Positions 43,473-52,944 of a DNA stretch of 64,000 nucleotides are shown here, piece after piece. The DNA is taken from contig NZ_CP046155.1 of the NCBI RefSeq assembly GCF_016403105.1, forward strand, positions 186,001 through 250,000, read 5' to 3'. The notes under the pieces are model-generated. The model saw only the letters and a program-made list of their open reading frames with translations, was not told the DNA's origin and did no database searches. The stretch is from Leptolyngbya sp. BL0902 (lineage in GTDB: Bacteria > Cyanobacteriota > Cyanobacteriia > Phormidesmidales > Phormidesmidaceae). The position numbers were made by a program, and so were the translations under genes. Each line of letters begins with the position of its first letter. Positions within the stretch are counted from its first letter, which is position 1.

Positions 43473-44512
43473 AACCGACATTCCGCAGGTTGACAGGAGT
43501 TAATTTAGGAGGTAGTACTGGCAGGCCGAAAAGCCCATGAGGCGAATGATCTTGCGGCGTTCATCCGAGAGGTTGCTGACCTGCTGAGCGTTTCCCGTGG
43601 AGACCAGATGAATGGCCTGAAACTTCTGCAAAATCCAGCGAAAGGTGGGCGTGCGAGTGGGGCGTTGCTTTTGGTCGAGCACGGTGTCATCGGCTTGGGC
43701 GAGTTGGGCTCTGAGTTGACGCTGCCCCAAACTATAGACCAGCAGGGTCAAGGCCATGATGAGGGCGAGGGCTTCCACCCGTTGGGGCTTTTTGACAAAG
43801 ACACTGCTGGTGAAGAAGAGGGGGGCTTTGAGGAAGCGAAAGCCACGCTCGACCTGCTGCTGGGCCTTGTACTCGCGCAGGAGGCGCTCGGCGGGGTAGG
43901 CGTCTTCATCCAGGACATTGGTGGCTAGAATGAAGCGACGATGGCGCTGTTGGTACTGGGCCTCGTACTCAGCGGTGCGTTCCAGCGTCGCCTGCCATTG
44001 GTAGCCCAACTCAGTCCCGCTCTCAGAGGCATACTCCCCGTCGAGAGCAAAGGAGGTCGAGTCTAGATGGCACTGAGACACCCTCACCCCAAAACGCCTC
44101 ACCGCCTGCATCGCCGCTTTGAGAAAAAACAGCGTCGTCCCGTACTCAAACAACTGATCTAGCAACCGACCCAACCGGTCATCGTTCAGGTGCCCTGCCG
44201 TAATCCCCTCCCCCAGCAGGTGCTCCACCGGCTTGCCCTCAAAAAACTGACTAAATAGGTACAGCGGCGCGCTGACAAATCCCAACCCGTTCAGAATCAT
44301 CGCTTTCACCACTTGCCCGGGGCTGATGTGGTTTAGCGGATGGGGGCCAGAACTTCATTGGTGAGCTCGACCAGGCCGATCTCATCCACTAACGCCGCCA
44401 CTAAGCCCAAGTGATCCAGGTTTTCTATCTCCAAGGCACAATCCCCATTCTTGCCCTGAGCTTACCTTAGTTACCCCAAATATTCTTTTTGTCAACCTGC
44501 GGAATGTCGGTT
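43473..44512 (-). mobile_element. Decayed IS1634-type insertion sequence with intact inverted repeats
   Basis: Perfect 23-bp terminal inverted repeats beginning AACCGACATTCCGCAGGTTG (43473-43495 and complement at 44490-44512) enclose about 1040 bp. The transposase is broken. No clear target duplication is found. With intact ends it could still be moved in trans by a full-length relative. Confidence 0.85.
43500..44434 (-). pseudogene. IS1634-type transposase, frameshifted and internally deleted
   Basis: An N-terminal part, LEIENLDHLGLVAALVDEIG to VLAP, is followed near 44343 by a one-base loss in a C run (APHPLNHIS would need one more C). The frame then continues as VVKAMILNGLGFVSAPLYLF to the end (270 residues from 44312). 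A segment of roughly 200 or more residues is missing between DGEYAS and GTELGYQWQATLERT, judged from my memory of full-length relatives; the DDE core is therefore incomplete. Not functional. Confidence 0.85.
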
Positions 44513-44602
44513 TTCAAAGGATCTACTTGGATTTAAGGACATGGCCTTGACTAAAATTAGTGCAGTATGGATGCTAATTCTAGCAAGTTGACGGAGTCAG
44601 CC

Positions 44603-44947
44603 ATGGTTCAAGATGTGCGCTACGTAACGGATGAACTAGGGGAGCGGGTGGCGGTCTTGTTGGATTTAGCCACCTACCAGCGGCTCATGGCTACTCATAA
44701 TGACCCTGAGTTGCTGACGGGGCTAAACCACGAGGAACTGGTTGTATTGGCAGAAAGCGCCCTATCGATAGACGCTCAAAGCCAGCTCCATAACTTATTG
44801 AGCCAAAATGCCGAGGGAGAACTCGTCGCAGAAGACTTAGCTACCCTCAATCAACTCTTGGCGCGGGTGGATGATCTCAACCTACTCAAAGCCAGAGCTC
44901 GCTACACCCTACAACAGTTAAACTCGGCAGGGTCGATAGCCTCGTGA
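44603..44947 (+). CDS. Antitoxin-like small protein, partner of the HNH gene
   Basis: 114 residues from the ATG at 44603 (an ATG at 44567 would add 12). The first 25 residues (VQDVRYVTDELGERVAVLLDLATYQRL) resemble the DNA-binding N-terminus of Phd/YefM-type antitoxins; the remainder is helical and acidic (LTGLNHEELVVLAESALS, LATLNQLLARVDDLNLLKARARYTLQQL). Its stop overlaps the GTG start of an HNH endonuclease gene by four nt, which is the gene order of a toxin-antitoxin pair. The toxin role of the partner is inferred. Confidence 0.65.
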   Translation: MVQDVRYVTDELGERVAVLLDLATYQRLMATHNDPELLTGLNHEELVVLAESALSIDAQSQLHNLLSQNAEGELVAEDLATLNQLLARVDDLNLLKARARYTLQQLNSAGSIAS

Positions 44948-45363
44948 GTGTCTATATCCCCAGCGTTCTACAGCGTCAGCTTCGGGAACGCTTTGCTAAC
45001 TGCTGTGCCTATTGTCATACCGCAGAGTCTTTGACTGTCACAACCTTTGAACTCGAGCACATCGTGCCACGTTCCGCAGGGGGCGTTACCGCCTTTGAGA
45101 ATCTTTGCCTATCGTGCCCTAGCTGTAATCGTCATAAGGCCAGTCGTCAAACAGCCGTCGATCCAGAAACGCAGGCAGCTACGCCCCTGTTTCATCCGCA
45201 ACAACAGCGCTGGAGTGACCATTTTGTCTGGAATGCTGATGCCACCGAGGTGGTTGGATTAACCCCTACCGGGCGTGCCACCATAGCTGCCCTCCAGATG
45301 AATCGCCCGCAAATGACTCGGGTGAGAAAATTATGGGTCAAGCTGGGGGAACATCCCCCTTAA
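44944..45363 (+). CDS. HNH endonuclease
   Basis: 139 residues with a complete zinc-HNH core: CAYC, FELEHIVPRSAGG (catalytic His), NLCLSCPSCNRHKASR. The C-terminal 60 residues (FHPQQQRWSDHFVWNADATEVVGLTPTGRATI) are the tail often seen in cyanobacterial HNH proteins of this kind. GTG start overlapping the preceding gene by four nt (translational coupling). The 3' end overlaps the convergent DUF2442 gene by 26 nt. It may be a nuclease toxin or a free-standing nicking enzyme. Confidence 0.88.
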   Translation: MSVYIPSVLQRQLRERFANCCAYCHTAESLTVTTFELEHIVPRSAGGVTAFENLCLSCPSCNRHKASRQTAVDPETQAATPLFHPQQQRWSDHFVWNADATEVVGLTPTGRATIAALQMNRPQMTRVRKLWVKLGEHPP

Positions 45364-45627: not shown

Positions 45628-45900
45628 CTAAGCATCCAATAGGTGATCTACTTTGTTGTCGATGCTGGTGAGCTTGCGTAGAACCGTGGGGCGATCTTCA
45701 TCGAGAGACGCTAAAAGCTGGACTATGCCTGCTTGCAAGGTGGTCAGGCGCTGAATCGCTTCCTCTAGCCGCTGCATACCTGCCTGAAACTCGCCACGGG
45801 CTTCTTCCCGCTCTAGCCGTGCTTCGGCCATTGTATCCAGCATGGCTTGGGCGGTGCGGGCATTGCTTTCAACGAGTTGGCGCAGTTCTGGATCTGTCAT
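45628..45900 (-). CDS. Small coiled-coil protein, unknown function
   Basis: 90 residues, almost wholly a predicted coiled coil (LRQLVESNARTAQAMLDTMAEARLEREEARGEFQAGM, LTTLQAGIVQLLASLDEDRPTVLRKLTSIDNKVDHLL). No Cys and no hydrophobic segment. It precedes the DUF2442 gene by 5 nt and the two are probably co-transcribed. Similar short coiled-coil genes are common in cyanobacterial accessory regions. Function not known. Confidence 0.7.
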   Translation of the reverse strand: MTDPELRQLVESNARTAQAMLDTMAEARLEREEARGEFQAGMQRLEEAIQRLTTLQAGIVQLLASLDEDRPTVLRKLTSIDNKVDHLLDA

Positions 45901-45942: not shown

Positions 45943-46035
45943 TATAGCAGTCCTAAATGATTTATGAGTGATGACAGGCGTGGAGCCCTTGATGAGTCTG
46001 GCTCTTGTTCTTACGAATGACCTAGGACTGCTATA
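45943..46035. repeat. MITE-like element with inverted ends TATAGCAGTCCTA
   Basis: 93 bp. Terminal inverted repeats TATAGCAGTCCTA are exact over 13 bp and imperfect for another dozen bases. No coding capacity. It lies between the coiled-coil gene and the putative membrane-partner gene, close to the border of the AT-rich operon. Confidence 0.75.
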
Positions 46036-46139: not shown

Positions 46140-47468
46140 TTAATTAGAATTCGCCATTTCGACATCTTCCTCTTCAGACTCAAGAGATTCATCGCGTATG
46201 ATGAAATAGTAATCTAAGTTAGAGATTGTCAGCGGAGTAGCTTTCTGCAAATTCTCTATGGTGAGCGCTGACAAATTTTCCAAAGCGGCTCTTTCAACAA
46301 TGTAGTCTTGAGCCTTTGATCTTTGATCGGAATCTATGAGTATCAGAAGACTGTCTCGTATCGCGCTGAAGTGGGATTGCTCCTGAGCTTTTTCGTAGTA
46401 AACATACTCAGGGGGCTTTGTTAACTCAATTTTCGACTCATCTCTAACTGTCTCCAAGACTGTTTCATCTACGGCGGGCAAGGCTGCAAGCTGTTGCAGT
46501 TCTTTGACATCCAATGTCTGATACCAGTCTACATGTGATTGCCAAGCAGAAATAGTTGCTAAATCATGATCATGAATCCGTAGAATTTCTGGGAAAATAA
46601 AATCTAGTTCATCAGCCTCCTGTATATCTGAGATGATGTTAGTGGCATCTTGTCGAATTATCTGCTCTAGTTCAACAAGACGACTGCCAACCGCAGGAAA
46701 ATCACTTTGTATCTGAAATGTCATGGCAATGGCCTGCTCAATAGCCCACACACATTCTCTACGACGTAGATAGGCTGCTGGCGAAATCCCCTCTAGCAAC
46801 TGATCATTGCTGTAGTCAGCTAGGGCATCGAAGAGCATATTTCTAGAAGCTGTTATTTCATCATTACGACGACCAATATCTTTGATGGTTAAGGCTGTCT
46901 GAAGCCGACTTAATGCCTTCTTAAATTTTCCATAGGCTTGCACGAGGATCGTGCGATGATGGCTAAATTCAACATCTTTTGCTACTCGATCAACGTGTTT
47001 CAGGATTTCTTCTCCCTGATCGGCTAAAGCTTCATGGAGATTCAGAAATCCATTGTTAATCTCTAATCTCATCTGTTTGATATCCTTTCGGAGTTTTAAA
47101 GTTTGCCAAAGGTTTACTGCTGCAAGAACTCCAGTGGCAGCAACTCCAACTCCAAGAACTGCTGTTGTAGCTTGTAACGTTGCTACTGATGCTGACAGGG
47201 CTTTAACCGCATTCAAGGTAATCTGTCCTTGATAAAGTTGTCCAGCACTCATCGCCATGGGAACTACAGCCGTAAGAGGGTTTAAACCCATGGCTGCTAT
47301 TCCAGCACTATTACTAGCTACTCCTATAGCATGAGCTGCAATTTGACCCGCCTGAGGGCCAGTAGCATAGCGCACCATACTCAGTGGTACACCTGACTTG
47401 GACATTACCACAGCATATTTGCCAGCCTCTATGCCAGCTTGAATGATGGGAGAAAACTGATATAACAT
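46140..47468 (-). CDS. Uncharacterised protein, putative membrane partner of the dynamin-like GTPase
   Basis: 442 residues, not recognised. Residues about 40-125 are glycine/alanine-rich and hydrophobic (IAAHAIGVASNSAGIAAMGLNPLTAVVP, ATTAVLGVGVAATGVLAAVNLW), enough for one or two membrane or pore-like hairpins. The rest is helical, with a coiled-coil-like stretch (LRKDIKQMRLEINNGFLNLHEALADQGEEIL) and an acidic C-terminus (LESEEEDVEMANSN). Base composition is visibly poorer in G+C than the surroundings. It starts 50 nt after the stop of the GTPase gene on the same strand, so the two probably form one operon and complex. Confidence 0.7.
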   Translation of the reverse strand: MLYQFSPIIQAGIEAGKYAVVMSKSGVPLSMVRYATGPQAGQIAAHAIGVASNSAGIAAMGLNPLTAVVPMAMSAGQLYQGQITLNAVKALSASVATLQATTAVLGVGVAATGVLAAVNLWQTLKLRKDIKQMRLEINNGFLNLHEALADQGEEILKHVDRVAKDVEFSHHRTILVQAYGKFKKALSRLQTALTIKDIGRRNDEITASRNMLFDALADYSNDQLLEGISPAAYLRRRECVWAIEQAIAMTFQIQSDFPAVGSRLVELEQIIRQDATNIISDIQEADELDFIFPEILRIHDHDLATISAWQSHVDWYQTLDVKELQQLAALPAVDETVLETVRDESKIELTKPPEYVYYEKAQEQSHFSAIRDSLLILIDSDQRSKAQDYIVERAALENLSALTIENLQKATPLTISNLDYYFIIRDESLESEEEDVEMANSN

Positions 47469-47518
47469 TTCGGAGATGGCTCACAACTGAACTGATAAAG
47501 ACGCTGATTATTTCCAAC

Positions 47519-50116
47519 TCAACTGCTGGAGGATGGCAAGCTATTAAGACTAGATTCAATACTAGAAAGACTTGATAGCTTGTCAGAAGCAAAAGCTTTT
47601 TTTGCTCTTTTAGAGTCAATGGTCTCCTGATGAATAGCGCTTTGCCTACTCAAGATTCCATCGAGAAGAGAAATCGAATGCTGAATAGCCTTGATAGCAT
47701 TTTCGTATTGAGAATCAATAGCTTTTACTACGCCTTCGCCAATATTATCTCCGATTTCTTCTAAGGAATTTGAAAATTTCTCAAAGCCTTTATTGTATAC
47801 CTCTTGCTTCATTTGCAAGATGATTTTTTCTGAGTCAGAGCCAAAAAACCACCCTACAACTGCTGATGTTGCCATTCCAGCTAATAGAATTGGCAGAAAT
47901 CCTACACCAAGGAAAGCTAATCCTCCGGCTACTCCCCCACCAAGTAATCCGCCACTACCTAGAGTTTTAAAAACGCCGAATATACCATCGCCGTTAATTG
48001 AACTTGGATTTAAGTTTGACTCAAATTGTATATTAACTCCGAAATGCGACAACGATAATCTGAACTGTTGACTTAAGCTCGAACTAGATACTAAGTCGAT
48101 TGACTTAAGATTTTCGTAGATTGAGTTGAGATTCTCAAAAATCTCCTTATCAAACTCTTTAAGTTTAGGTATCAAGAGTTTATCTTTTACTGTTTTGTCT
48201 AGCCAATTATCCAAATCTTCTGACAAGTCATTGAGAAATTGATTTGCAAAATCTCTAAGGATTTTCTCCTTGCCTTCTGCTTCAGAAATCCATTCAGCGC
48301 TCTTTTCCGCAATTCGATCTTCTACACCATCAAGCCATTCCTTCCACGCCTCATTGACATCATCTAGAACCTCATTAACTAAATCATCTCGTAAGAGTCG
48401 GAGCTTGATCTCACGACCACTAGCAGCACCAATTTGCTCAATAATTTGACTGCGCTCAGATTCAGATAAGCTAATTTCACCTTCCAAAATTTGGATACTT
48501 TGCCTTAATCCAAGCTGTGCTTCCTCAATGATTCGAGTAAGAGAATTTTTCAGTTTTTCTATGACTAAAGAGCCGCGCTCTTCTGTCAAGAAGACTTGAA
48601 TTGATTGAGTGAACTGCTGAAAACCTTTCAGATATTCATTGTCATTCCCTTCTAATATCGCGTCTAAAGCCGCTTGTGCAGAAATAAAATGCACCCTATC
48701 TTTGCCTGTAATGATAGGCTTTGAACCCAGCAGAAAGTTATTAGCTCTCTGTTTGACCTGCTCTCTATCCTCTTCACGGCGCAACAGATCTATAAAATTA
48801 ACTGCAACGAATAGACTTTCACTTGGGCCTTGAGAATCTCCATCATTTAGCTGTTTTCGTAGAAACTCAAGTAGCTCCATTTCAGTCTGCGTAAAAGAGC
48901 GTGAAGCATTAGCCATGAAAATCACTGCGTCAGTATTTTTTAAGAGCTGATGAGTGATAGCTGTTCGTTCAGGGTGCTCATTCAATCCAGGAGAGTCAAT
49001 AATTTCAACTTGATGCCGACACAACTCCAGATCTGGATGTTCAAATACTATTTCCTGGATGTCTGATTTGGATAACTCCTCAGCAATATTTAGCAAAGCC
49101 GCTTCTTGAGAGATTGAGGCCAGTTCCTTATATTTTTCCAGTGGAACCTCTTCTTCTTCTCCATTTTTGTATCGGCAGATTACACGATATTTTTCACCAT
49201 GCCTTAAAACTGTCACAGTACCACTGCATGGAATAGCCCTAACAGGCTGAATTTCCGATCCTAATAAAGCATTGAGCAGCGTTGATTTACCCTGACTAAA
49301 TTCACCTATGACTGCTAGTCGAAAATACTGAGACTGAGCTTTATCCAATACTTGAGCAGCTTCATTCTTCAGGGCTTCAGATATCAATTCTCGATCAGCA
49401 CCTTGCTTAATTAAATCAAATAGTTCAGATGCGATTTGGGCTAATCGGCCTTTAACTTTGCTGAATTTCTCAAGCTCATCATATGAAATCTTCAAGTCTG
49501 AACTTGTATTTCTTTCTATCTCCTTTTCGCCAAGCTTAGTCCTCAGAATCTCTGCTGCATTCATAAACGCAGGATCAAGCGCCTGAAAGTGATGTGGATC
49601 TAGCAGTGTATAAATTTCAGAGACTGCTTCCCCGTCTTCAGGCTTATCATTTATTGTGCCATAAAAGAATAAACGGTATTTAGCATCTACTCCAAGAATT
49701 CTTGCAACAATTTCAATATATTTATCTTCTTTTTCAGCTAGATCTTCGTCAGCAGATGCAACTTCACAGCATAGTCCTAGAATGAGGATTTTCTCGGAAT
49801 CAGTCAGCTGACCAGCAAATTTCTTAAAAACTTCTTTCTTGGAGTATAACTTGTGCTTCTGAATACCTTGAAAAATAGGCTTGACAAGTTTTCCTATATA
49901 GCTTTGAGGAGGCAGAAATTGACCCAGTGCAGACTTGATTACCTGCTTCTCAGCTTCCGTAACCTGATTATCTGCATACATCACTCCTATTAGTGGAATT
50001 GCCAACGCCATAATAAATACTAGACGGTGACTTACCTGCTCTTCTTGAACATTTTGCTCAGTAACTTGAGAAATCAACCCTGCGAATTCTTTTTTTGCGA
50101 CTGACTCTTTAACCAT
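47519..50116 (-). CDS. Dynamin-like GTPase with N-terminal TerB domain
   Basis: 865 residues. A TerB-like acidic helical domain (about 30-150; FIMALAIPLIGVMYADNQVTEAEK, LILGLCCEVASADEDLAEKEDKYIEIVARILGV) precedes a dynamin GTPase domain: P-loop GEFSQGKSTLLNALLG near residue 270, a Thr switch region (RAIPCSGTVTVL), DSPGLNEHPERT near 375, and VAVNFIDLL. Then come long helical stalk segments, a hydrophobic hairpin at about 720-758 (LLGGGVAGGLAFLGVGFLPILLAGM) able to enter membranes, and a helical tail. This is the bacterial dynamin plan for membrane remodelling. The gene is AT-rich, suggesting acquisition from elsewhere. The 442-residue gene follows directly. Confidence 0.85.
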   Translation of the reverse strand: MVKESVAKKEFAGLISQVTEQNVQEEQVSHRLVFIMALAIPLIGVMYADNQVTEAEKQVIKSALGQFLPPQSYIGKLVKPIFQGIQKHKLYSKKEVFKKFAGQLTDSEKILILGLCCEVASADEDLAEKEDKYIEIVARILGVDAKYRLFFYGTINDKPEDGEAVSEIYTLLDPHHFQALDPAFMNAAEILRTKLGEKEIERNTSSDLKISYDELEKFSKVKGRLAQIASELFDLIKQGADRELISEALKNEAAQVLDKAQSQYFRLAVIGEFSQGKSTLLNALLGSEIQPVRAIPCSGTVTVLRHGEKYRVICRYKNGEEEEVPLEKYKELASISQEAALLNIAEELSKSDIQEIVFEHPDLELCRHQVEIIDSPGLNEHPERTAITHQLLKNTDAVIFMANASRSFTQTEMELLEFLRKQLNDGDSQGPSESLFVAVNFIDLLRREEDREQVKQRANNFLLGSKPIITGKDRVHFISAQAALDAILEGNDNEYLKGFQQFTQSIQVFLTEERGSLVIEKLKNSLTRIIEEAQLGLRQSIQILEGEISLSESERSQIIEQIGAASGREIKLRLLRDDLVNEVLDDVNEAWKEWLDGVEDRIAEKSAEWISEAEGKEKILRDFANQFLNDLSEDLDNWLDKTVKDKLLIPKLKEFDKEIFENLNSIYENLKSIDLVSSSSLSQQFRLSLSHFGVNIQFESNLNPSSINGDGIFGVFKTLGSGGLLGGGVAGGLAFLGVGFLPILLAGMATSAVVGWFFGSDSEKIILQMKQEVYNKGFEKFSNSLEEIGDNIGEGVVKAIDSQYENAIKAIQHSISLLDGILSRQSAIHQETIDSKRAKKAFASDKLSSLSSIESSLNSLPSSSS

Positions 50117-50379
50117 TTATAACTTACCTTTCAACAGTGAGAGACATGTATGCTAGAGGTACAAGATACTAGACAATGAGCATAGGTCATTTGAACATTC
50201 TCTACTAAGATTCCCCAAAGACTACGCAAGATCAACATCGGCACATCAAGATCGCAACTTAGTTACATTTCTTTAGATTATTGAATGACTGTGATACATT
50301 TAGACTATCGCAACTCATGAGGTTGCTACATCATGGAAGCTATCCCCTAGCGAGTGATTTTCTGGCTTGGTCTCACCCT

Positions 50380-50991
50380 ATGGTTCAACTTCAGCCCCAA
50401 CTCCTGACCGTCCGTGACTTCATTGATCACTATGGCGACAACCCCCAGTACGAACTCATCGATGGAGAGCTAACCGACTTGGAACCCACAGGCATCCATG
50501 AGCAGGTTGCAGGCTTTGTGGGGCGAAAGCTCAATGTTGCTATCGATCAACAAAACGCGCCCTACGTGATTCCCTACCGCTGCCTGATCAAACTGCTGGG
50601 CACCGAAACCGCCTTTCGGCCCGATGTGGTGGTGCTAGACCAGACCCAGTTGGCTCAAGAACCGCTGTGGCAGCAGGAACCCGTCATTTGTCGGGGAACA
50701 TCCGTCAAACTCGTGGTGGAAGTGGTGAGCACCAACTGGCAAAACGACTATGCCCGCAAAACCGAAGACTACGCCCTGCTAGGTGTGCCTGAATACTGGA
50801 TTGTGGACTACCTAGGGCTAGGGGGGCGCGACTACATTGGCACCCCCAAACAGCCCACGGTAACGCTGTGTGTATTGGAGGGTGATCGCTATCAAAAACA
50901 GGTGCTTCATGGGGATGATTGGCTGCAATCTCCAACCTTTCCTGGCCTCAATTTGACGGTTAGCCAGATCTGCGCGGCTGGAGTTATTTAA
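50380..50991 (+). CDS. Uma2-family (DUF820) putative endonuclease, second copy
   Basis: 203 residues from the ATG at 50380; the frame extends to 50281 but the extra 33 residues look non-family. Landmarks: DFIDHYGDNPQYELIDGELTDLEP, RPDVVVLDQTQ with the acidic residue, LVVEVVSTNWQNDYARKTEDYALLGVPEYWIVDYLG. The E-V-S and K residues of the PD-(D/E)XK centre are in place. Borders the AT-rich dynamin operon and the chl cluster. Terminated by a clear stem-loop at 50994. Activity unproven. Confidence 0.9.
   Translation: MVQLQPQLLTVRDFIDHYGDNPQYELIDGELTDLEPTGIHEQVAGFVGRKLNVAIDQQNAPYVIPYRCLIKLLGTETAFRPDVVVLDQTQLAQEPLWQQEPVICRGTSVKLVVEVVSTNWQNDYARKTEDYALLGVPEYWIVDYLGLGGRDYIGTPKQPTVTLCVLEGDRYQKQVLHGDDWLQSPTFPGLNLTVSQICAAGVI

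Positions 50992-51035: not shown

Positions 51036-52944
<1,909 letters not shown>

Follow-up and report, generated by a model that had tools for sequence, protein, structure and literature searches.

The 64,000-nucleotide stretch of the Leptolyngbya sp. BL0902 genome that was analysed here (the window; positions 186,001 to 250,000 of NZ_CP046155.1) contains two adjacent AT-rich genes: one encodes a bacterial dynamin-like protein (BDLP) with a TerB domain, the other a partner protein that belongs to no named family. We consider it just about probable that this pair is a diversifying two-protein membrane conflict module of cyanobacteria, and probably a mobile one. Partner and dynamin-stalk protein are an almost invariable gene pair. 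Partner and stalk (the helical half of the dynamin downstream of the GTPase) form the constant core, to which GTPase, paddle (the membrane tip of the stalk) and TerB are added as modules; the pair in the window carries all three. Judged from synonymous divergence, close relatives appear to exchange GTPase and stalk as discrete types, with partner and TerB staying constant. Such loss, gain and swapping of dynamin parts between strains is a pattern typical of biological arms races.

Both genes lie on the minus strand. The dynamin gene is the upstream member (47519..50116, 865 amino acids; identified from the list of open reading frames (ORFs), Pfam, a BDLP profile match and Foldseek) and is separated by a 50-nucleotide spacer (47469..47518, minus strand) from the partner gene (46140..47468, 442 amino acids; identified from the ORF list, with a sub-threshold Pfam match only). 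The initial annotation had described two co-oriented genes 50 nucleotides apart that are poorer in G+C than their flanks, and both points were borne out. The G+C content (GC) is 0.391 for the dynamin gene and 0.432 for the partner gene and GC at third codon positions (GC3) is 0.32 and 0.35, respectively, compared with a mean GC of 0.597 (standard deviation 0.024, minimum 0.530) and a mean GC3 of 0.70 for the 40 other window ORFs of at least 150 amino acids. With these 40 ORFs as reference, the two genes have the lowest codon-usage scores among all 42; the numerical comparison that the annotation had proposed thus sets the pair strongly apart from its neighbours in GC, GC3 and codon usage.

Co-conservation of the two genes, the other check proposed at that stage, was examined in 292 genomes drawn evenly from the phylum, that of the window being one of them. 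The partner is present in 26 of these genomes (fragments counted), any dynamin match in 73 and a close dynamin in 17; these 17 reach E 1.1e-96 or better, and the genome ranked next follows at E 9.4e-39. The partner accompanies the close dynamin, whether full or partial, in all 17, the window's own genome among them. The two genes are adjacent on one contig in 15 genomes besides the window, co-oriented in G170 and divergent in the other 14; in G030, dynamin and partner lie at the ends of separate contigs. A scan of bacteria and archaea with one genome per species yielded 179 partner relatives, and the best 80 were analysed: all record titles are cyanobacterial, and in 77 of the 80 loci a dynamin module (stalk, GTPase or TerB) is found within 4.5 kb of the partner. 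At the three remaining loci (L124, L144 and L156) the contig stops within 250 bases of the partner. The pair is thus kept together, and as the pairing survives reversed gene order (8 of the 77 paired loci are co-oriented, 69 divergent), operon hitch-hiking is hard to invoke. The mirror-tree correlation between partner and stalk is 0.85 (0 of 999 permutations as high), although this value is confounded by shared ancestry.

What faces the partner varies. The 80 loci comprise 51 with TerB, GTPase and stalk, 14 with stalk only (9 intact, the others cut or degraded), six with TerB and stalk but no GTPase, three with GTPase and stalk but no TerB, three with a partly visible module (a contig end cuts two of these, and the third is a GTPase fragment) and three with none. 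In the draw of 292 genomes, ten partner copies that lack an adjacent dynamin face a protein of about 340 amino acids (p340, split in one case), one faces a 406-amino-acid stalk protein (L092) and one a stalk remnant of 128 amino acids. Homology of the p340 proteins extends over the entire half of the dynamin that follows the GTPase (hhalign E 1.4e-38, 316 columns against dynamin columns 495-852), and ratios of non-synonymous to synonymous substitution (dN/dS) of about 0.2-0.5 in seven pairs show that they are under purifying selection. A comparison of p340 with solved chains returned 194 matches up to E 1 with a best value of 0.011; the 60 listed are influenza hemagglutinin coils, which we take as chance matches. 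To account for the architectures on the partner tree (77 rows, unrooted) takes 11 changes, where 3 would be the minimum; from the well-supported branches, the full form must have changed at least 8 times. Two of the rows counted as stalk-only, L134 and L146, probably represent truncations. The paddle tracks the GTPase: a hydrophobic paddle is found in 44 of 44 complete full-length dynamins and in three of three that lack TerB, while in the 9 intact stalk-only and six TerB-stalk proteins it is absent or borderline (stalk hydropathy at most 1.57). The exceptions are L100 (cut by a contig end) and L134 (incomplete), which have a strong paddle and no visible GTPase, and the 406-amino-acid protein of L092, in which a strongly hydrophobic segment occurs without a GTPase. 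The pairing described in the initial annotation stands; beyond what that reading could show, the GTPase is missing in natural variants of the pair, and GTPase and stalk were found swapped between strains. Two stand-alone TerB ORFs (L098, L099) do not lie beside the pair and look like strays. One partner and stalk-only pair (L080:5172-7042) lies next to ORFs that by eye resemble Cas4, Cas1 and Cas2.

Swapping was examined in the 41 loci with both genes complete, which gave 62 pairs (25 loci) with a partner synonymous difference below 0.30. A synonymous difference more than 0.2 above that of the partner is seen for TerB in none of these pairs, for the GTPase in 25, for the stalk in 32 and for the C-terminal end in 13. 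In two close pairs synonymous divergence becomes three to four times higher at residues ~540-780: between L147 and L150 it stays at 0.08-0.24 as far as residue 540, climbs to 0.48-0.61 over residues 542-781 and then falls to 0.29, and between L118 and L121 the corresponding values are 0.02-0.26, 0.37-0.63 and 0.23. The converse is seen between L106 and L107, where the GTPase is swapped (0.31-0.61 over residues 181-480) and the stalk is not (0.08-0.12 over residues 541-780). Relaxed protein constraint would not raise synonymous divergence, and recombination with diverged alleles is therefore the simplest account. The types cross lineages: the partners of L118 and L121 are 98% identical and their stalks 69%, yet the stalk of L118 shares 95% identity with the L147 stalk, and the stalk of L121 shares 92% with the L150 stalk. 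By partner, L147 and L150 are in turn mutually nearest (91%), and the identity between their stalks is 65%. Across ten Nostoc-group loci whose partners are 87-95% alike, three types of GTPase and three of stalk occur in mixed combinations. Orphan stalk or partner fragments are present just past some intact pairs (L115:6676-6858, L106:6149-6274) and are possibly silent cassettes that feed the swapping.

Discrete types of stalk and GTPase would also be expected of incompatibility alleles in allorecognition or kin discrimination between filaments. The types are common to lineages with near-identical partner genes, and most host names are those of genera with a filamentous habit. However, phage pressure would yield the same pattern, and no secretion or contact signal was seen, although no search was aimed at one; we regard allorecognition as improbable. 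TerB domains are linked to membrane remodelling and stress, and a BDLP with an accessory protein could instead serve ordinary membrane maintenance, such as repair of thylakoids or plasma membrane. The BDLP fold would suit this function, and the portion of a review on BDLPs seen ties these proteins to membrane remodelling and stress. Against it stand the restriction of the partner to just 26 of 292 genomes, its absence from seven congeners, the changes of architecture and the stalk swapping, which has no counterpart in a control dynamin of 811-823 amino acids from the same genomes: no stalk peak was found in three pairs tested, and values along the control range between 0.11 and 0.41, the highest being the last segment of one pair. 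Maintenance is thus an unlikely function of the pair.

The architecture of the dynamin is readily recognised. A TerB domain at residues 37-145 (49682..50008, minus strand; PF05099 E 2.3e-12, 47.7 bits against a cut-off of 24.4) precedes the GTPase core at residues 267-417 (48866..49318, minus strand; PF00350 Dynamin_N E 7.2e-28, also above its cut-off, and motif conservation). The annotation's reading of an intact P-loop and a switch 2 DSPG motif is confirmed by G271, S274, G276-T279, D374, P376 and G377 (these last three in switch 2), N440 and D443, which are invariant in 45 aligned dynamins (window included). The stalk with its neck and trunk helices occupies residues 494-865 (47522..48637, minus strand) and is, by AlphaFold and hhalign, the part held in common with the GTPase-less stalk-only proteins. 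Long stalk helices had likewise been anticipated, and the AlphaFold model (mean predicted local distance difference test (pLDDT) 79, predicted template modelling score (pTM) 0.58) places them at residues 494-544, 552-606, 616-677, 762-783, 785-830 and 833-858. Between them lies the paddle, a low-confidence hydrophobic tip at residues 697-760 (47837..48028, minus strand), with pLDDT below 50 at residues 697-747 and 749-760 and a hydropathy of 2.07 at residues 728-746; this is the membrane-insertable segment that had been noted in the GTPase protein, and it sits in the middle of the segment exchanged in relatives. The closest solved relatives are BDLPs of N. punctiforme, 2j68 (profile E 1.3e-46, profile positions 213-847) and 2j69 (Foldseek E 1.4e-18), with a BDLP Z score of 24.5 at a root-mean-square deviation of 5.3 over 579 residues; mitofusins reach Z scores of ~30 over some 350 residues (mitofusin-1: 30 over 354). 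From sequence and model, the protein is a dynamin of the BDLP/mitofusin type with a TerB domain, predicted to hydrolyse GTP and to tubulate membranes. Assignment to the tandem dynamins, to LeoABC or to the KGK, HSR1 or chaperone clades is excluded, as a search for the neighbour that defines each of them drew a blank: the seven flanking ORFs scanned include no dynamin and the partner is unrelated to dynamins, and the Pfam scan detected no KGK, HSR1 or DnaK domain in the partner or these seven ORFs.

The partner is a member of a family without a name in the copies of Pfam, NCBIfam and PADLOC searched; the only Pfam match is sub-threshold (Senescence, E 0.008), and PADLOC and NCBIfam gave none up to E 1. 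The predicted structure (pLDDT 79, pTM 0.78, with the membrane-helix region uncertain) and conservation define a small strand-rich N-terminal domain (residues 1-50, 47319..47468, minus strand), with strands at residues 18-22, 28-34 and 43-46 (block mean pLDDT 82-94) and invariant F5, G16, G26 and A47 in 54 sequences, and an all-helical C-terminal domain (residues 165-442, 46143..46976, minus strand) with invariant R235, E238, C239 and W241. The membrane helix proposed in the initial annotation is present at residues 98-116 (47121..47177, minus strand) but is only moderate, with a mean hydropathy of 1.60. A diverged dynamin can be rejected as the origin of the partner, with hhalign probabilities of 0.3% against the TerB-dynamin and 0.6% against p340. 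A C-terminal acyl-carrier-like domain is found on 11 of the 67 complete partners (L117, L122, L123, L124, L127, L135, L136, L139, L143, L147 and L157); the one checked is PP-binding (E 4.9e-15), and 10 of the 11 retain the attachment serine motif (DSL), an unusual tie of a membrane module to acyl-carrier chemistry. Two partners are fused to a GUN4 tetrapyrrole-binding domain (E 1.6e-38 and 2e-27; L134:6001-7758 and L146:6001-7779), and the stalk gene there looks truncated; one further partner carries an extension without a Pfam match. GUN4 is described in the portion of PMC7159879 seen as an add-on of cyanobacterial conflict systems that perhaps senses photosynthetic status.

An alpha-helical pore-forming effector of the ClyA, HBL or JukB kind, restrained by the stalk protein, is a rather doubtful identity for the partner. 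A membrane segment with a hydropathy of at least 1.4 is present in 66 of the 67 complete relatives, and the weak fold matches are to middling helical bundles (JukB: Z 9.8, 3.5 Å over 173 residues; ClyA: Foldseek E 0.26). For helical bundles, however, Z scores under ~13 may reflect a common arrangement only, and unrelated proteins score equally. Foldseek found no PDB or viral-model match at E 0.001 or better, and the partner profile matched one PDB chain up to E 1, at E 0.1.

Horizontal arrival of the pair in a variable genomic slot is strongly indicated. No partner was found in any of the seven same-genus genomes searched, five of which have a completeness of 90% or more and a contamination of 5% or less, and the genes that flank the pair are present in same-genus genomes. 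On the left this is an ORF at 45628..45900 (minus strand) with an orthologue in congener G292; on the right, an Uma2 gene (50281..50991, plus strand) that in congeners G293 and G297 lies near chlN without the pair, followed by chlN itself (51036..52565, minus strand), which serves as synteny anchor. Both chlN and the nearby chlL, which mark the genome as cyanobacterial, are named from sequence reading. In G292 the left-flank ORF and chlN bracket other cargo (L187:9665-13668), namely a small ORF that by eye is helix-turn-helix-like, a 729-amino-acid NACHT protein (NACHT E 1.3e-11, NCH2 E 1.3e-7, GC 0.36) and a 352-amino-acid SPFH/Band 7 protein (E 1.6e-20, GC 0.37); the latter two are possibly an NLR-plus-membrane module in their own right. 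G293 has three AT-rich coiled-coil-like ORFs (GC 0.35-0.36) just past Uma2 and chlN, near a contig end (L186:11859-13579), two without a Pfam match up to E 0.01 and the third with a sub-threshold match to DUF3826 (E 0.0066). G297 has ~0.5 kb without an ORF of 80 amino acids between Uma2 and the next gene; the left flank of the window was not found on this short contig. The slot of the pair thus accepts AT-rich foreign cargo, in one case an NLR-type gene. The nearest relative found for the pair is in G170, from another genus of the family (partner 71-72%, dynamin 59-60% identity), and is AT-rich too, with a GC of 0.433 compared with 0.52-0.56 for its flanks.

Genes around the pair were compared with control regions of the same genomes. 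The comparison comprised 137 neighbour proteins at 14 of the 38 loci fetched and 123 proteins in the controls, of which 13 of 14 regions count because L205 gave no proteins; genes below 90 or above 650 amino acids and genes cut by region ends were dropped beforehand. At E 1e-8, 134 PADLOC models are matched near the pairs and 21 in the controls (models counted, not proteins). Among the 25 of these 134 models that are listed, mad3 and mad8 match five proteins each, and two PDC-S03 and two AriA models three each; Cas models account for 14 of the 25, most of them matching a single protein, and we ascribe these to one locus, L080. Models of Cas5d, Cas6d and Cas7d also match in the neighbour sample. 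No PADLOC model matches more than one protein in the controls. The Pfam families near pairs include Uma2 (5), ABC_tran (5) and AAA_21 (3), none of which is among the 25 families listed for controls.

An anti-phage role of the pair is plausible, and such defence ranks as its likeliest use, ahead of the rival readings of allorecognition and membrane maintenance. Its specific form, a system of the Eleos/LeoA or DynA kind in which the dynamin would sense an infection-linked membrane change and delay lysis or kill the cell, with the partner as membrane anchor, is quite possible but falls somewhat short of probable. The dynamin matches the PADLOC models LeoA (E 8e-19) and LeoBC (E 6.5e-13), a congener has NACHT and SPFH genes in the same slot, the pair is patchy and diversifying, and there is a precedent in DynA, which according to the portion of PMC9950537 seen delays phage lysis. 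On the other hand, the second dynamin gene of LeoABC is missing, the partner is unrelated to dynamins and GTPase-less forms of the pair exist. The initial annotation had suggested a membrane-protective or abortive defence module in which the partner could form a pore or a GTPase-gated complex, and neither of the two outcomes that it had named as refuting this was obtained: a membrane-acting, probably horizontally acquired pair fits, but the partner fold has no significant match.

Several points weigh against a mobile, diversifying conflict module. No relative of the partner was found in the plasmid, viral-contig and phage collections searched (40 pattern matches in viral contigs include no true relative), and absence from the congeners could reflect loss rather than acquisition. 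The neighbourhood counts lean towards defence but fall short of establishing it. The 62 pairs used for swapping are not independent, and those with an excess over the partner of more than 0.2 in any module, 36 in number, all fall in two groups, the Nostoc-type loci and Microcoleus/Tychonema and allies. Three stalk-only pairs show no excess in the stalk, with synonymous differences for p340 and partner of 0.22/0.19, 0.29/0.28 and 0.53/0.49. The evidence for swapping comes from lineages other than that of the window, whose nearest relative is saturated at synonymous sites. Some dynamins look interrupted (L068 and L069, 2 of 15 genomic ones, and several of the 80 loci, for example L112, L145 and L170), and in the draw of 292 genomes six partner remnants have by eye no recognised stalk gene.

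If the pair is nevertheless such a conflict module, the partner would be the constant membrane-bound effector or anchor, on which the dynamin may assemble or polymerise via its stalk. The swapped stalk, presumably its tip, would recognise or escape a variable counterpart, for which a phage factor or a non-self allele is the likeliest candidate, and in the full form GTP hydrolysis would then remodel, seal or breach the membrane. More tentatively, and as a possibility rather than an expectation, the loci may constitute a polymorphic dynamin recognition system with constant partner and TerB, interchangeable GTPase and stalk types traded across lineages and the stalk as specificity determinant; partner and stalk would be its core and GTPase, paddle and TerB optional control modules.

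The remaining features of the window concern the surroundings of the pair. A stretch of 93 bp with an exact 13-bp inverted repeat at its ends (45943..46035, no strand assigned) marks the left edge of the insert; it was rejected as a miniature inverted-repeat transposable element, since the arm occurs nowhere else in the genome. Scans for promoters and terminators gave matches no commoner than chance. Two Uma2 genes had been annotated next to the pair; one is confirmed (50281-50991), and a second is absent among the seven flanking ORFs scanned. Of an annotated HNH pair one HNH gene stands, and the other ORF has sub-threshold RelB/Phd matches instead; in the stretch 44567-45363 this ORF overlaps the HNH endonuclease ORF, and similar DNA is present in G292. 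The insertion sequence remnant at 43500-44312 is supported in part, with DUF4277 above its Pfam cut-off and DDE_Tnp_1 slightly below.

Bacterial dynamins are common in cyanobacteria and their roles are mostly obscure. A constant non-dynamin partner, GTPase-less versions and traded stalk types offer a direct handle on such a role. If GTPase-less pairs work, dynamin stalks act apart from GTP-driven remodelling; if the stalk sets specificity, bacteria and vertebrates recognise with the same part of a dynamin, and polymorphic dynamin recognition, if true, would have its parallels in recognition by the Mx stalk or in allorecognition loci.

Our searches of open-licence papers on dynamins and conflict systems turned up no account of the pair; several known systems resemble parts of it. 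With the N. punctiforme BDLP (2j68/2j69) and mitofusins the dynamin has the layout of GTPase, neck, trunk and paddle in common; it differs by its N-terminal TerB domain, by a non-dynamin partner in place of a tandem dynamin, and by GTPase-less homologues and a stalk swapped between strains. Cyanobacterial BDLPs have been classed by sequence and neighbour genes into KGK, HSR1, chaperone, Tandem A/B and unclassified clades (Jilly et al. 2018, PMC5827413); in the portion of that paper seen no clade has TerB or the partner described here, and 'TerB' occurs 0 times in its main text. Eleos, the system behind the PADLOC LeoA and LeoBC models, is similar in its dynamin-like GTPase and in the matches to these models. 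LeoABC consists, as far as described in the portion of PMC4159319 seen, of dynamin-like proteins, LeoB and LeoC acting together with LeoA; in the window there is one dynamin, an unrelated partner and a TerB domain. Juk also consists of two proteins, the sensor JukA and the pore protein JukB, one of them acting on membranes (PMC13282480, in the portion seen); it has no dynamin, and the likeness in fold of the partner to JukB is middling and under the level trusted for helical bundles. The antiviral dynamins MxA and MxB use stalk loop L4 as a fast-evolving recognition surface. Mx varies at single sites under positive selection, whereas in the cyanobacterial pairs a whole stalk segment appears to be exchanged by recombination, in a module that has, unlike Mx, a membrane paddle and a second protein.

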